DNA from: a virus
DNA: 32,839 bases
IMG/VR virus record: IMGVR_UViG_3300037146_000068
Span: 1 to 32,839 of that record
Strand: one strand, 5' to 3'
The position numbers were made by a program, and so were the translations under genes. Below are positions 20,184 through 26,904 of this stretch, one piece after another (the stretch's first letter is position 1; each line of letters starts with the position of its first letter). A model generated the notes under the pieces. That model ran no database searches. It was not told where the DNA came from and worked only from the letters and a program-made list of their open reading frames with translations.

Positions 20184-21494
20184 ATGCAAGCCAGTCAAAT
20201 TCCGATAAAATTCCCAATTCCGTGGGGCGCAGATGCCGGGTCGGATTACATTCGCCCGATCCCTGTCGCATCTCAACAAGGCATTCAGGCGGGCGCGGCA
20301 TCGTTGACTGACGGGTTTCCGCCATTGACATTCGTTCCCGTCACGGCTGGCGGCGCTTTTCCGTTCGGACAAGATGAGAATGGAATCCTTAATCAAATTA
20401 CCGCTTGGTCTCAATGGCAGAACGCGGGCGCGGCAGTTGTTTATGACTCCGCCTTTTCGACTGCCATCGGCGGCTATCCGAATGGCGCGCTGCTTTATTC
20501 GGCAGCGGGCGGGTCATGGTGGTTAAGCACTGCCGACAACAACACTACCGATCCAGATACCGGCGGCGCGAACTGGCAACAAATCAACAGCGGGCTGGTT
20601 TATGCCGGGAATCCGAACGGATTTGTTGCGGGCATTTCTCCCATTAATGACTTTCTGGCATCGTCGATTCTGTGGGATTCGACGAATAAAGTTTTGTGGA
20701 TTTGCACGACAACCGGCAACGCATCGGGCGCGGTGTGGACGCAATTGACGTCAAGCGCCGCCTACAGCACATTCTACTGCGGCACATCGACGGGATCGGC
20801 AAATGCGCAAATTTTGACTGTTCCAACCGCGTTGCAAACGCTTGCGACAGGCACAGAAATCCGGTGGAAAGCCGGGTACACCAACACCGGCGCAATGACA
20901 CTGGCTGTTGGCTCCTTTGGAACAAAATCGATGCGTCAAGATGGCCCAACCGGGCCAATCGCATTGAATGGCGGCGAGATCGTCGCAGGGAATATTTTGA
21001 CCGCGACTTACGACGGCACTTACTGGCAGTTGACCGCGACGTGTTTAGGCACTGCCGCGCTGGCAAATGCCAGTTCCAACACAGGTACTGTGTCGGCAGT
21101 GACAGGTAGCGGCAGCATCGTTCCAGGGCATATTTCTGTATTCGTTGATGACGAAGGGACGATTGAGGATGGCGGGCCGCTCCCGGCATTCGGCGGCGAG
21201 GTCATAAACTCGTCGCAATCATTGCTGCCCGGAGTTTATTACGTCGATACGACAGGTGGCGCAATCACGTTGACGCTTTCCGCGTCGGTGTCTGGGGCCT
21301 ACACGTTCGTCGATGAAATGAACTACTGGGGCGTCAATAATCTTACGATTAACGGCAACGGGCACAACATCGGCGGCGGCCCGACGCTTGCGTTGGCTAT
21401 TGCGGATGGCGCTTCAACGTTCCTAGCGAATATTTCCGACGCTCAATTTTATATCGCAGCTGTTTCAGCTTCGTCTTTTTGGAGATTGGTGTAA
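20184..21494 (+). CDS. Tail fibre protein
   Basis: A 436-residue protein. The N-terminal 160 residues carry a widespread prophage/phage fibre start: IPIKFPIPWGADAG, QAGAASLTDGFPPLTFVPVT, AGGAFPFGQDENGILNQITA, YDSAFSTAIGGYPNGALL and SWWLSTADNNTTDPDTGGANWQ. This part attaches to the gpI-like protein encoded just upstream. The rest is shaft-like (WKAGYTNTGAMTLAVGSFG) and ends in a small beta domain. Three cysteines and no signal peptide, unlike the fibre-like proteins at 15147-18728. Its stop overlaps the next start (TAATG), suggesting co-translation with the adhesin. Confidence 0.8.
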   Translation: MQASQIPIKFPIPWGADAGSDYIRPIPVASQQGIQAGAASLTDGFPPLTFVPVTAGGAFPFGQDENGILNQITAWSQWQNAGAAVVYDSAFSTAIGGYPNGALLYSAAGGSWWLSTADNNTTDPDTGGANWQQINSGLVYAGNPNGFVAGISPINDFLASSILWDSTNKVLWICTTTGNASGAVWTQLTSSAAYSTFYCGTSTGSANAQILTVPTALQTLATGTEIRWKAGYTNTGAMTLAVGSFGTKSMRQDGPTGPIALNGGEIVAGNILTATYDGTYWQLTATCLGTAALANASSNTGTVSAVTGSGSIVPGHISVFVDDEGTIEDGGPLPAFGGEVINSSQSLLPGVYYVDTTGGAITLTLSASVSGAYTFVDEMNYWGVNNLTINGNGHNIGGGPTLALAIADGASTFLANISDAQFYIAAVSASSFWRLV

Positions 21495-22594
21495 TGGCAA
21501 AACTATCTGATTTTACTCAATCGAATGCAAATCTAGCGGCATTCCTGCTTACTTTTTCAGCAGGACTAGGGCAAGAAGTTTTTGGAACAGGGAATATTCG
21601 CTTATACCTTGCGAGCAGCAATTTTAACGCTTCTTTTCTTGCTTCGACACAAAATGCGCGGATTACCTGCTTTGGCCCGGGCGGCGCTGGCGGCGCTGGC
21701 GGGGGGAATGACGCTACAGGCGGCCATGGCAGCGGCGGTGGTGGCGGTGGCGGCGGCGGCGGTGGATTCGCTCAGATTATCACTACTCTTAATCCGAGCA
21801 GCACTTACGCTGTAACCATATCCAGTTCTATAGCAGAATTTGGACTCGCCACGCCGGTTATCGCGAATGCAGGCGGCAACGGCGGCGCTGGCGGAACAGG
21901 ATCGAACGGCGCTGGCGGCACTGGCGGAACCGGCGGCGCTGGCGGGACGGCATCGGGCGGAACGCTTAATTTGACAGGCCCCGTTGGCGGTGCTGGCGGG
22001 GCTGGATATACCAACTCGTCAACCGGATACGCCGGTTCCGGCGGCGGCGGGGCTGCTTCCGGGATTAGTAATGGCCTTGGGATTGGCGGGACTGGCGTTG
22101 CTGGCACTAGCTCCGCTGCTTCGACAGGCGCAGGCGGCGGCGGCGTTGGCGGCGCAGGAAGCACAAGCGCAGGGGGCGGCTCTGGCGGCGCGGCGTCGGG
22201 CGGAACTCCAGGAGTTAATATTGCAGGCAGCAGCGGCGAAGACTCATCTATATACGCTTATACCGCACGCACATATTTGGACAACAAGTTTCGCGGATCG
22301 GGAGGTGAAGCGGCTATCGGCGGCACCGGTTCCGGCGGCGGCGGCGGCGCTCCCGGTCTTGCAGGAGTCAGCAACGGCGCTATCGGTTACGCAGGCGGAA
22401 TTAGCGGCGGCGGCGGCGGCGGCGGCGCTGGCACTGGGACGTCAGCAACCGGCGCGGTCGGTGGCAATGGCGGCGCGGCAGCAGGTTACGGTTCTGGCGG
22501 CGGCGGCGGAGGGGGCGCTTCTGGGGGGTACTCAGGAGCGACAACAACGACCGGCGGCGCAGGCGCGCCCGGTTTTGTAATGGTGGAATATTAA
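21494..22594 (+). CDS. Glycine-rich adhesin (fibre tip) protein
   Basis: A 366-residue protein. The start at 21494 overlaps the fibre stop; an upstream TTG at 21479 is rejected. The N-terminus (MAKLSDFTQSNANLAAFLLT, GNIRLYLASSNFNASF, then ITCFGPGGAGG) is not a signal peptide. From residue ~65 to the end it is glycine-rich, with runs of 5-8 Gly and GGAGGTGG patterns around short beta segments (SSTYAVTISSSIAEFG). It ends in GAPGFVMVEY. This is the pattern of gp38-like receptor-binding tips. It is probably the partner of the fibre encoded upstream. Its end motif resembles that of the exported glycine-rich protein at 17811. Confidence 0.75.
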   Translation: MAKLSDFTQSNANLAAFLLTFSAGLGQEVFGTGNIRLYLASSNFNASFLASTQNARITCFGPGGAGGAGGGNDATGGHGSGGGGGGGGGGGFAQIITTLNPSSTYAVTISSSIAEFGLATPVIANAGGNGGAGGTGSNGAGGTGGTGGAGGTASGGTLNLTGPVGGAGGAGYTNSSTGYAGSGGGGAASGISNGLGIGGTGVAGTSSAASTGAGGGGVGGAGSTSAGGGSGGAASGGTPGVNIAGSSGEDSSIYAYTARTYLDNKFRGSGGEAAIGGTGSGGGGGAPGLAGVSNGAIGYAGGISGGGGGGGAGTGTSATGAVGGNGGAAAGYGSGGGGGGGASGGYSGATTTTGGAGAPGFVMVEY

Positions 22595-23071: not shown

Positions 23072-23359
23072 ATGAACGGACAATTGACGTGGTTCGAGGT
23101 GATTACAATTTTTCTTAGTCTTTTGGGGTTTGTCACCACGGCTTTTGGGATTGTAATCTGGTTCAATATCCGGCAGAATGTGCTAGGGTTGGAAAAGCTG
23201 AAAGAAGATTTAGCTTTATTCAAAACGCATGTCGCGACGCATCACCCAGACAAGGACATGCTTGCATCTATTTTCGACAGAATAGATCAGATTCGAACGG
23301 ATATCAGTTCGATGGCGAATATGTTTCGAGATAGATTAGATCAAAAGGCGGATAAATAA
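23072..23359 (+). CDS. Small membrane-anchored coiled-coil protein (spanin- or holin-accessory-like)
   Basis: A 95-residue protein; the start at 23072 is one base after the HNH stop, and an upstream in-frame ATG is rejected. One transmembrane helix at about residues 8-31 (FEVITIFLSLLGFVTTAFGI, VIWF) is followed by a charged helix (LEKLKEDLALFKTHVATHH, then MLASIFDRIDQIRTDISSM) likely to form a coiled coil. This layout suits an inner-membrane spanin or an accessory protein next to holin and endolysin. It overlaps the endolysin start (TAATG). The function is inferred from layout and context. Confidence 0.6.
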   Translation: MNGQLTWFEVITIFLSLLGFVTTAFGIVIWFNIRQNVLGLEKLKEDLALFKTHVATHHPDKDMLASIFDRIDQIRTDISSMANMFRDRLDQKADK

Positions 23360-23844
23360 TGTCGTTTTCAAAAAATATCGTCCCTGCAAATCTCAACGCA
23401 TTTTTAGATTGCGTTGCGTTTTCCGAAATCGGGCCTTCGTTACTTGCTAATCCTGTCACTGATGACGGCTACCTAATTTTGGTAGGAAGCACGCCAGCAA
23501 ATCCGCTCGTGTTCAAAAGCTTTGTTTCGCATCCGAACATTTTCGACAAGGCGTTGAATAGCGATGCGGCAGGAAGATATCAACTTATGGCTAGGTATTT
23601 TGAACCGTACAAAAAACAGCTCTTGCTCCCGGATTTCGGGCCGCGTAGTCAGGATAGGATCGCTATCCAGCTGATTCACGAATGTCATGCTTTTGACGAT
23701 ATAATCGCTGGAAATTTTTCAAGCGCGATTATAAAGTGCAATAGCCGGTGGGCATCGCTGCCTGGAAGCCAATACATGCAACACGAAAACAGCATGGCGG
23801 CATTGCAAAACGCCTATACTTCCGCTGGCGGGAGCCTGGCATGA
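23359..23844 (+). CDS. Endolysin, lambda R-like transglycosylase (GH104-type)
   Basis: A 161-residue protein that aligns by eye with lambda R over its whole length (lambda R has 158). Shared features are FLDCVAFSE with Glu23 as the catalytic acid, DAAGRYQLMARYFEPYKKQL, LPDFGPRSQDRIAIQLI, and the C-terminal WASLPGSQYMQHE with AYTSAGGSL. The enzyme cleaves the glycan strands of peptidoglycan, leaving anhydro-muramyl ends. No signal peptide or anchor is present, so it needs a holin. Start overlaps the preceding stop; its stop overlaps the holin start (ATGA). Confidence 0.9.
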   Translation: MSFSKNIVPANLNAFLDCVAFSEIGPSLLANPVTDDGYLILVGSTPANPLVFKSFVSHPNIFDKALNSDAAGRYQLMARYFEPYKKQLLLPDFGPRSQDRIAIQLIHECHAFDDIIAGNFSSAIIKCNSRWASLPGSQYMQHENSMAALQNAYTSAGGSLA

Positions 23845-24080
23845 GCGCCAGCGCAGCCCACACTGGAGGAGCGGCCCTCGTCACCATTCAGCTAGCGTCC
23901 GTCATCGATTGGATCGCGAACACGCTTTGTGGCATGCATATGCCGAACGATATAGAAATGGCTCTCGCAGCGTTAATCGTTACTTTTGCGCATTTTCTTG
24001 CAAATTCACTTTCTAGTGTTAAAATGAATCTTTCTAACACGAAAGTCGATGATGACAACAACATTCCTGCAAAGCAATGA
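23841..24080 (+). CDS. Holin candidate
   Basis: A 79-residue protein; start at 23841 overlaps the endolysin stop, and the longer in-frame version from 23748 lies inside the endolysin gene. Two hydrophobic stretches (AALVTIQLASVIDWIANTLC and IEMALAALIVTFAHFLANSL), a short turn (GMHMPND), and a polar charged tail (KVDDDNNIPAKQ) give a holin-like layout. Placement next to the endolysin supports this. The first hydrophobic stretch is only moderately hydrophobic, so a one-TM (class III-like) or two-TM (class II) topology are both possible. Confidence 0.65.
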   Translation: MSASAAHTGGAALVTIQLASVIDWIANTLCGMHMPNDIEMALAALIVTFAHFLANSLSSVKMNLSNTKVDDDNNIPAKQ

Positions 24081-25359
24081 TTCGCTAATTCCATTCACCC
24101 CTCAGCCTGTTCTGACTCAGGGGAATGTCGGGGATTGCGTTGAGTGCGCGACAACCAATCTAATTGCTCTGACGACATCCTTATATGGCCCTGTTTTTAA
24201 TTCAAACGCGGAATTTCAATACAACCTGAACCTGCAAGCGCAAGGTCAGCTAGGCGTAGACGCTGGAACGAATGTTTCCGAGGCGTTATCGCTATTGCAG
24301 ACGTCCGGCTTGACTCAAAATACAACAATCCAATATGGTGATTACACGACTGCGCCTGGCGCTACCGATCTTGCCGACGCGGCAACGCATACTGTAACCG
24401 GAATCACACCGCTAACAGTGCTAACAGGGAGCGCTGACAATTGGTTAGCGAATGAAATCGCTGGGTATTTAAACCAAATGAAACCGCTGCTCATGGAGTT
24501 TGAAGCTTGCGCAGGCTTCTTTGCCGAAGAAACTATTTCAAATTTGGCAAACCAAAACGGCATGGATACGGGCGCAGCCGCAGGGTTGCATGAGGTAGCG
24601 ATTGTTGCGGTCAACACCAATACGGACATGCTGACAGTCGAATCGTGGGGATCGGCTTATGGAGCTAAGGGTTTGTTCCAAATATCTTTGAGCAGTTTCG
24701 ATGGCGCAGGGGCGATTAATTTACTGGCAATCGACGCGATAAATGGATTTAACGGCATTGATCTCACACAAAACTCTAACACGCAAGCCGTATCTGCCGC
24801 ATTTGTCGCGATCCTTGGGCGCGCATCGGCTTTGTCCGGTATGACGGCTTTCTCGGCTGCGCTGAATAACGGCGCAATGACCGTTGCGAACATGTGCGAT
24901 TCCATCTTTGCGTCCTCGGAGGCGCAAGCCGATTTCGCCGGGATGACCAATACGCAAATTATTAATCAACTTTACCAAAATGTATTAGGTCGGAACGCGC
25001 TACCGGCAGGCATGACGGCGCTGTTAGGAGAGCTTGCAGGAGGCGCTACTATAGGCGCTGTGGCCGCGCAAATTATCACGGCTGGCGAAGCTCTCGGAAA
25101 TTGGAGTAACACATTCGAGGGCGGCGTATGGTCGGGAACGAATAACGATCCTAACATGATGACGGAATCGGGGATATTCCAAAATAAAATACAGGTTGCG
25201 GAAGATGCGGCGATTGCCATACAAGCTGGACAAGGAAACAACGCAACTCTTCACAACATTTTGACGACGGTTACGGCGGACCAATCGACGATTCTCGCCA
25301 GTCTCGTCGGAGTGCCGCAGCAGCTTCAAGGCGCGTCGCATGTAGCGATTCACTCTTAA
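24049..25359 (+). CDS. Papain-like cysteine peptidase fused to DUF4214-type repeats
   Basis: A 436-residue protein overlapping the holin gene by 32 bases; a second ATG at 24052 is equally possible. Residues 24-36, QGNVGDCVECATT, match the papain active site Q-G-x-x-G-x-C: Gln24 as oxyanion-hole residue and Cys30 as nucleophile. His181 (GLHEVAIVAV) aligns with the catalytic His, and ESWGSAYGAKGLFQI with papain NSWG.xWGExGY, but the usual Asn is Glu198. Residues about 246-350 contain two DUF4214-like units (AFVAILGRASALSGMTAF and LYQNVLGRNALPAGMTALL), a domain of secreted and surface proteins. No signal peptide. Role unknown: lysis aid, processing enzyme or virion-associated protease. Confidence 0.65.
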   Translation: MMTTTFLQSNDSLIPFTPQPVLTQGNVGDCVECATTNLIALTTSLYGPVFNSNAEFQYNLNLQAQGQLGVDAGTNVSEALSLLQTSGLTQNTTIQYGDYTTAPGATDLADAATHTVTGITPLTVLTGSADNWLANEIAGYLNQMKPLLMEFEACAGFFAEETISNLANQNGMDTGAAAGLHEVAIVAVNTNTDMLTVESWGSAYGAKGLFQISLSSFDGAGAINLLAIDAINGFNGIDLTQNSNTQAVSAAFVAILGRASALSGMTAFSAALNNGAMTVANMCDSIFASSEAQADFAGMTNTQIINQLYQNVLGRNALPAGMTALLGELAGGATIGAVAAQIITAGEALGNWSNTFEGGVWSGTNNDPNMMTESGIFQNKIQVAEDAAIAIQAGQGNNATLHNILTTVTADQSTILASLVGVPQQLQGASHVAIHS

Positions 25360-25619: not shown

Positions 25620-25787
25620 ATGGACAATTTTGTCCCGGAAAACGAAACCGTTATACAGCGAATAATCCATATGAATGGAGCGTTAAGCGTGTTGCCTTTA
25701 CAAGCCAGGTACATTTTTGTTTCACCCAGAGAAGCGCAACAATTTCAAACCGATATCGAACAATTAGAGAAGGAACCTATATCATGA
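25620..25787 (+). CDS. Very small protein (55 aa), unknown
   Basis: An ATG at 25620 preceded by AAAGGAGTCGGC, an excellent ribosome site, opens a 55-codon frame (MDNFVPENETVIQRIIHMNG ... EQLEKEPIS) ending at TGA 25785-25787, which overlaps the lipoprotein start (ATGA). It is soluble, with a central hydrophobic part (ALSVLPLQARYIFV) and a charged C-terminal helix. Strong ribosome site, exact tiling between neighbours and overlap support a real gene. No function recognised. Confidence 0.7.
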   Translation: MDNFVPENETVIQRIIHMNGALSVLPLQARYIFVSPREAQQFQTDIEQLEKEPIS

Positions 25788-26170
25788 AAAAGATTACTTT
25801 AACGTTGCTTGCCGCATGCTTGCTCGGATGCTCTTCAACACCGACCACAACAGTCCAAACGCCTGCGCAGATCGTTGCAAAGGTTTGTCCGCCAGCCCAC
25901 GTAGCGTTAACATCTTTAACCGGCCTTGTAGGCCTTCCTGCCGATGCGGAAGCGAATATTCAAAAAGCTTCAACTCTCGTCGCGGCGGTTTGCGCGGACG
26001 GAGCGGTATTTACTAATCTTGATTTGCAAAACATCGATGCGCAAGCCGTGCCCTTGTTGATGGACGTTGCAAAAGCGGTAGCGTTGACAACGGCGCAGCA
26101 AAACGATATTACACTGGCCATTGGCGCGGTGCAAATCGCTATATCATTCGTTCAGTCGGTTAATCCGTAG
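25784..26170 (+). CDS. Lipoprotein (outer-membrane type), possible o-spanin or exclusion factor
   Basis: A 128-residue protein with a lipoprotein signal: MKKITLTLLAACLLGC, lipobox LLGC with Cys16, followed by Ser-Ser, which favours outer-membrane sorting. The mature part starts with a short Thr/Pro linker (STPTTTVQTPAQ), has two cysteines (KVCPP, AVCADG) and two amphipathic helical regions (VPLLMDVAKAVALTTAQQND). In a lysis cluster with no obvious Rz1 it could be the outer-membrane spanin, but it is longer and less proline-rich than Rz1. A superinfection-exclusion role is an alternative. Confidence 0.65.
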   Translation: MKKITLTLLAACLLGCSSTPTTTVQTPAQIVAKVCPPAHVALTSLTGLVGLPADAEANIQKASTLVAAVCADGAVFTNLDLQNIDAQAVPLLMDVAKAVALTTAQQNDITLAIGAVQIAISFVQSVNP

Positions 26171-26247: not shown

Positions 26248-26904
26248 ATGAACATCTCGAAAAAGGAAGCCGCATTCCTTGCATGCGTCTGCGCGTATCA
26301 AGGCAAGCAAATCGGAGGTTTCGATCAAGTGCTGTCTATCGGGCCGGACTTTGTATATCTGAAGCAGATGGACAATCTTCTTACCGCAACGATTCTCGGC
26401 ACTGTCGATTGGTCGATGTGGGAAAATAATTTTAAAATCGAGAACGCAGATCATCCGACGTTCGGCCCAATGCATAAAGGATTCTTGGAATCGGCAACGG
26501 CGATGACTGCCACGCTGAAGCCGATCTTTTCGGCGCACTTGGCTGCGGGCGGCAAAATCTCTCTACAAGGTCATTCAAGAGGCGGTAGTCTAGCGGACAT
26601 TGTGGCAAGCGAATGCGCGCTAGACGGGATTGTCATCGACCAATTGTTCCTATTCGAGGCAGCATGCGTCGGGACGAAACAATATTCGAACTGGGCTTGC
26701 AGCATGAGGACGGTGGATTTATCAACGACAAACGGCCCCGATCCAGTGCCAGCGTCAATGCTTGTTGGGTTGACTGAAAGAATTCCTACCTACCCGAGGG
26801 TCGAGTTGTACTGCGCGCCGGGCGGAATTGGAGAGTTAAACTTAATGAAATGGCACGCCGGTTCGACAATCTATACCGGCGTGGAAGAAATGTATCCGGC
26901 ATAA
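26248..26904 (+). CDS. Lipase class 3-like alpha/beta hydrolase
   Basis: A 218-residue protein. The nucleophile elbow G-H-S-R-G-G (Ser110) follows a beta strand (AGGKISLQGHS), as in class 3 lipases (GHSLGG). The upstream GPMHKGFLESA matches the 'xxHxGF' motif of the family. Asp165 (NGPDPVPAS) and His203 (MKWHAGS) complete a plausible Ser-Asp-His triad at expected spacing. No signal peptide is present, so it would need the lysis pathway or act inside the cell. Ester substrates cannot be deduced. It sits after a terminator and ends flush against the convergent early genes, so it may be expressed by read-through or be an added gene. Confidence 0.75.
   Translation: MNISKKEAAFLACVCAYQGKQIGGFDQVLSIGPDFVYLKQMDNLLTATILGTVDWSMWENNFKIENADHPTFGPMHKGFLESATAMTATLKPIFSAHLAAGGKISLQGHSRGGSLADIVASECALDGIVIDQLFLFEAACVGTKQYSNWACSMRTVDLSTTNGPDPVPASMLVGLTERIPTYPRVELYCAPGGIGELNLMKWHAGSTIYTGVEEMYPA

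Follow-up and report, generated by a model that had tools for sequence, protein, structure and literature searches.

A candidate divergent xylellain-type C1A peptidase joined to DUF4214 units in the lysis cluster of a myovirus-like phage

The standard lysis set of phages of Gram-negative bacteria comprises a holin, an endolysin and spanins. Xylellain-type C1A (papain-type) peptidases have been acquired by Myoviridae and Siphoviridae of the Caudoviricetes (PMC10380794), and a cysteine-protease-like endolysin has been recorded in the lysis cassette of a Gordonia phage (PMC4982276). The CHAP endolysins Skl and LysGH15 combine a papain-like fold and a Cys-His-Glu triad (proposed for Skl; PMC8586454) with a place in the lysis gene cluster. 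The protein described here is like them in these respects, but its sequence profile and fold search point to C1A. With xylellain of Xylella fastidiosa (3ois) and the short bacterial C1A peptidases it shares the papain fold and has Gln, Cys and His in register, while differing from them in its low identity (18%), in a Glu for the triad Asn, in the addition of DUF4214 and in the short N-terminus ahead of its catalytic domain. With the xylellain-type C1A proteins of Caudoviricetes (L111-L145) it shares both family and virus group. Phages were already known to carry enzymes of this family, of which the protein is a distant, divergent member.

The DNA examined is IMGVR_UViG_3300037146_000068, positions 1-32,839; this whole stretch of 32,839 nucleotides is here called the window. 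Sheath and baseplate matches indicate that it comes from a myovirus-like genome. The candidate protease gene is an intact ORF in which, by eye, neither a signal peptide nor a transmembrane segment is seen. The gene lies after the endolysin and holin genes in a rightward late cluster, where the order is tail fibre, glycine-rich protein, HNH, membrane/coiled-coil protein, endolysin, holin, protease, 80-aa protein, lipoprotein and class 3 lipase. The features of this region are as follows.

23072-23359, plus strand: possible i-spanin, 95 aa, with an N-terminal membrane segment and a coiled coil (phrog_739, Rz-like spanin, 0.0095, for a longer ORF)
23359-23844, plus strand: endolysin (lysozyme type), 161 aa (phrog_90, 4.1e-39; 51% identical to the BcepC6B endolysin)
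23841-24080, plus strand: holin-like membrane protein, 79 aa (phrog_9284, holin, a weak match at 8.6e-4)
24049-25359, plus strand: predicted C1A (papain-type) cysteine peptidase with DUF4214, 436 aa
24049-24744, plus strand: papain-fold catalytic domain of the peptidase, about residues 7-232, with Gln24, Cys30, His181 and Glu198 (C1A profile, phrog_16701, AlphaFold2 model, 3ois)
24769-25095, plus strand: two DUF4214 units, about residues 241-349 (Pfam PF13946, two stretches)
25096-25356, plus strand: C-terminal tail (residues 350-436), which the AlphaFold2 model shows as helical with low confidence (block pLDDT 35-62)
25784-26170, plus strand: lipoprotein, possible o-spanin (lipobox LLGC; phrog_456, Rz-like spanin, 0.0011)
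26248-26904, plus strand: class 3 lipase, with which the rightward cluster ends (Pfam Lipase_3, 8e-11)

Holin start and endolysin stop share the letters ATGA (in the ORF list this start is at 23748), and the first 32 nt of the protease gene in turn lie within the holin ORF. Behind the tail fibre, the glycine-rich protein (21479-22594, 371 aa) has no family match and is possibly an adhesin tip.

The assignment to C1A is carried by profile, alignment and model together, and all three bear out the initial annotation, which had described a papain-type peptidase fused to DUF4214 beside a holin and an endolysin. The family phrog_16701, named 'peptidase', matches residues 9-217 at 1.7e-5. We also built an independent profile from the bacterial proteins that match phrog_16701 and one plasmid C1 peptidase, leaving out the window protein, and compared it with all ORFs of the window. 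The protease ORF scored 36.1 bits (E 4.6e-10), against 2.4 bits for the next-best window ORF and 7.3 bits for the best of 2000 shuffles, and the match is therefore beyond chance. In Pfam, neither Peptidase_C1 (PF00112) nor CHAP (PF05257) is reported for the protein up to E 1, a level at which divergent CHAP members can escape detection; nor does Pfam report any peptidoglycan-binding or hydrolase cell-wall domain, and the NCBIfam search returned nothing. The motif argument put forward in the initial annotation fared less well than its papain-type conclusion, which stands: a search of 2.9 million viral contigs for QGNVGDC gave, apart from the same virus, only chance frames and proteins that we take to be RecT, and we rejected this string on its own as evidence of a peptidase. 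The exact string HLQGNVGDC occurs in several of these RecT-like proteins (L009, L013, L015 and others), a pitfall for motif reading.

In the alignment with bacterial C1A proteins, Gln24-Cys30, His181 and Glu198 line up with the Gln-Cys, His and Asn of the catalytic site, and the Gln, Cys, His and ESWG (Glu198-Gly201) that had been picked out by eye are all present in the ORF. A scan of viral contigs with C1A sequences yielded 35 viral loci, from which 28 viral relatives were aligned with the window protein. Gln24, Cys30 and His181 are invariant in all 29 sequences, as is Ser199. Cys30 is thus kept in 28/28 relatives, all of them distant, no close homologue having been found. Position 198 is the exception: Asn is kept in every one of the 28 relatives and Glu occurs in the window protein only, which upholds the earlier reading of an Asn-to-Glu exchange in the triad. 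Because of Glu198, in place of the third active-site residue typical of C1A, we file the protein as a variant and not as a typical member, such a residue being allowed in the wider papain-like superfamily, where the Cys-His-Glu triad is an accepted form (PMC10318531). Our best reading from sequence and model is that the protein is probably a divergent xylellain-type C1A cysteine endopeptidase, with a putative Cys30-His181-Glu198 triad and Gln24 predicted to sit in the oxyanion hole. In a tree of C1A sequences, the protein lies on a very long branch of 4.06 changes per site, and this length together with the exchange at 198 could mean that activity is lost or altered. That the protein has gone as far as becoming a catalytically dead binding protein with its papain fold retained is, however, highly improbable, since it still has Gln24, Cys30, His181 and the SWG motif and Glu is accepted as a third residue in papain-like enzymes.

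The predicted structure agrees with this assignment. A single-sequence AlphaFold2 model was discarded (pLDDT 35), while the model made with the alignment of the 28 viral C1A relatives reaches a pLDDT of mostly 80-96 over residues 10-220; because the model fails without the C1A alignment, which biases the fold, its papain fold derives from the homology and is no separate evidence beside it. The closest structure to this model is xylellain 3ois (Foldseek 2.2e-9; Z 22.7, rmsd 2.3, 213 residues), and its residues 7-232 match many C1A structures with Z 18-22.7, again for a model made with a C1A alignment. Structure prediction, which the initial annotation had proposed as a check, thus gives a papain-like fold.

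The second part of the protein was likewise correctly recognized from the letters alone, in that Pfam finds DUF4214 (PF13946) in two stretches at 8.5e-13 and 48.6 bits, against a gathering cut-off of 23.2. The best stretch comprises residues 285-349, with the second unit preceding it, and both units are also detected in the sister record (24.7 and 36.3 bits). DUF4214 is common in bacterial proteins, and secretion is associated with the proteins that carry it. Among the viral C1A proteins examined, only L129 (454 aa) and L133 (369 aa) carry this domain, each of them with Peptidase_C1 and DUF4214 above the Pfam cut-offs and in the same order as in the window protein; the architecture of peptidase plus DUF4214 therefore recurs. 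The window protein differs from both in lacking a Pfam Peptidase_C1 match and in its separate place in the tree, which is unsure from long branches, and because its branch is too long to be placed, one fusion event and several look alike. Between the C-terminal part of L129 and the DUF4214 region of the window protein there is a match of 27.2 bits, above the 8.7 bits reached in 1000 shuffles. The phmmer alignment spans the DUF4214 part only, while the tail (residues 350-436) resembles the end of L129 by eye. Among the papers searched, none described a phage peptidase with a DUF4214 fusion. A protein of EBPR siphovirus 2, gp15 (L146:3915-5198), is annotated as 'protease', and Pfam shows DUF4214 only.

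The statement in the initial annotation that such a peptidase has no known role in a lysis cluster was too strong as to precedent, given the published acquisitions (PMC10380794) and the C1 genes that adjoin, overlap or are fused with endolysins. In MMB025, a phage endolysin contains a C1 domain alongside glycoside hydrolase and peptidoglycan-binding domains; in THSA-485A a C1 gene directly follows a GH25 lysozyme; in MW202816 a C1-like gene overlaps an amidase; and in a prophage (L098) a C1-like gene follows a phage lysozyme. At four loci chosen by eye (L114, L117, L124 and L125), a C1A gene lies less than 3 kb from Pfam-confirmed cell-wall hydrolases. Because of these phage precedents and the place of the gene after the holin, which it overlaps, we favour a role in the lysis phase, as a tentative preference that we hold at somewhat less than an even chance. 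The protease, having no visible signal peptide, would be produced late and stay in the cytoplasm until the holin lets it out together with the endolysin. The DUF4214 units would serve as a binding part that holds it to an envelope protein, and the enzyme would cut protein of the cell envelope, with outer-membrane proteins, surface proteins and peptide cross-links as candidate substrates, a cleavage that, next to the class 3 lipase, may help to burst the cell or free virions. If this is true, a protease aimed by a binding module adds a protein-cutting step to lysis and offers a lead to envelope targets, and targeting becomes a role that can be tested for DUF4214, a domain of unknown function. 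The broader proposal, that phages have repeatedly recruited xylellain-type proteases as an extra envelope-cutting lysis step, here with a Cys-His-Glu site and DUF4214 targeting, is rather doubtful.

A rule by which viral C1A genes are lysis genes was considered and dropped, as it is supported neither by the neighbour families, which are mixed and whose PHROG matches include portal and structural proteins, nor by a rough tally in which small membrane proteins and lipoproteins are only modestly more frequent near viral C1A genes (26/155) than farther away (14/136). Several viral C1A genes lie in other contexts, which speaks against a lysis role. The neighbours of L129, the fusion closest in length, are small, non-structural genes unlike lysis genes, and in FLC9 and Shaeky the C1A gene does not lie near annotated lysis genes. 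These contexts, like the lack of a visible signal peptide or membrane segment, would suit a cytoplasmic protease of host takeover or counter-defence that cuts a host protein before lysis, with DUF4214 selecting the target; for the window protein we consider this unlikely, its gene being within the late lysis cluster and after the holin. The C1A gene of L133 follows structural-looking genes, and this, with the portal and structural matches above and the tail-fibre genes upstream in the window, is what a virion-linked protease, part of a tail or fibre module and acting in processing or entry, might look like. Yet HNH, spanin-like, endolysin and holin genes stand between the protease and the tail genes and no processing target is seen, and we regard such a link as decidedly unlikely.

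The search for the gene in relatives, also proposed at the outset, gave a divided answer: the fusion architecture was found in L129 and L133, while related phages found via the tail gene have no orthologue of the protease, which also counts against a lysis role. The 62-kb record IMGVR 3300037242_000178 agrees with the window at 100% identity wherever the two were compared; this locus (L001) stems from the same virus assembled a second time and was rejected as an independent homologue. No close relative emerged from direct tblastn searches of phages and of plasmids or from scanning genome contigs with a pattern (the plasmid matches being DUF4214 or weak C1), and the catalytic domain found only weak, short matches in 398 genomes of one phylum. 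The absence from related phages is what would be predicted for a cargo enzyme, which with the nearby lipase might work outside the cell after lysis or serve the host, and DUF4214, as a common bacterial domain, would fit; the 62-kb record, which may be incomplete, has no tyrosine integrase, which makes it less likely that a lysogen would benefit, and we judge the cargo reading very unlikely.

In the tail-gene relatives, the region matching the protease locus holds other papain-like or lipolytic genes instead: a C92-like gene (weak) in L034, a C1-like gene in L052, patatins in L035 and L036, and a lipase in L055. A lipolytic gene (Lipase_3 or patatin) closes the rightward late cluster in the window (26248-26904) and at L055:13952-14674, L035:18819-19610 and L036:19093-19902, and across four related phages this cluster-end slot looks fixed and its fold exchangeable. 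The presence of such genes at the cluster end in L035, L036 and L055 also speaks for the lysis-phase reading. The C1-like gene of L052, which has no Pfam name, is a member of phrog_19005 (WGNDRFGCC...NTWG), a C1-like family found in prophages (L093-L107), where its genes come behind those for lysozymes, membrane proteins or lipoproteins. Another recurrent feature near viral C1A and lysis genes is short proteins of YiiX/C92-like or phrog_1128-like type, with the PHROG name 'enoyl-CoA hydratase':

L133:5993-6454, YiiX/C92-like or phrog_1128-like protein
L124:4140-4658, YiiX/C92-like or phrog_1128-like protein
L148:2290-2793, YiiX/C92-like or phrog_1128-like protein
L034:11412-11924, YiiX/C92-like or phrog_1128-like protein
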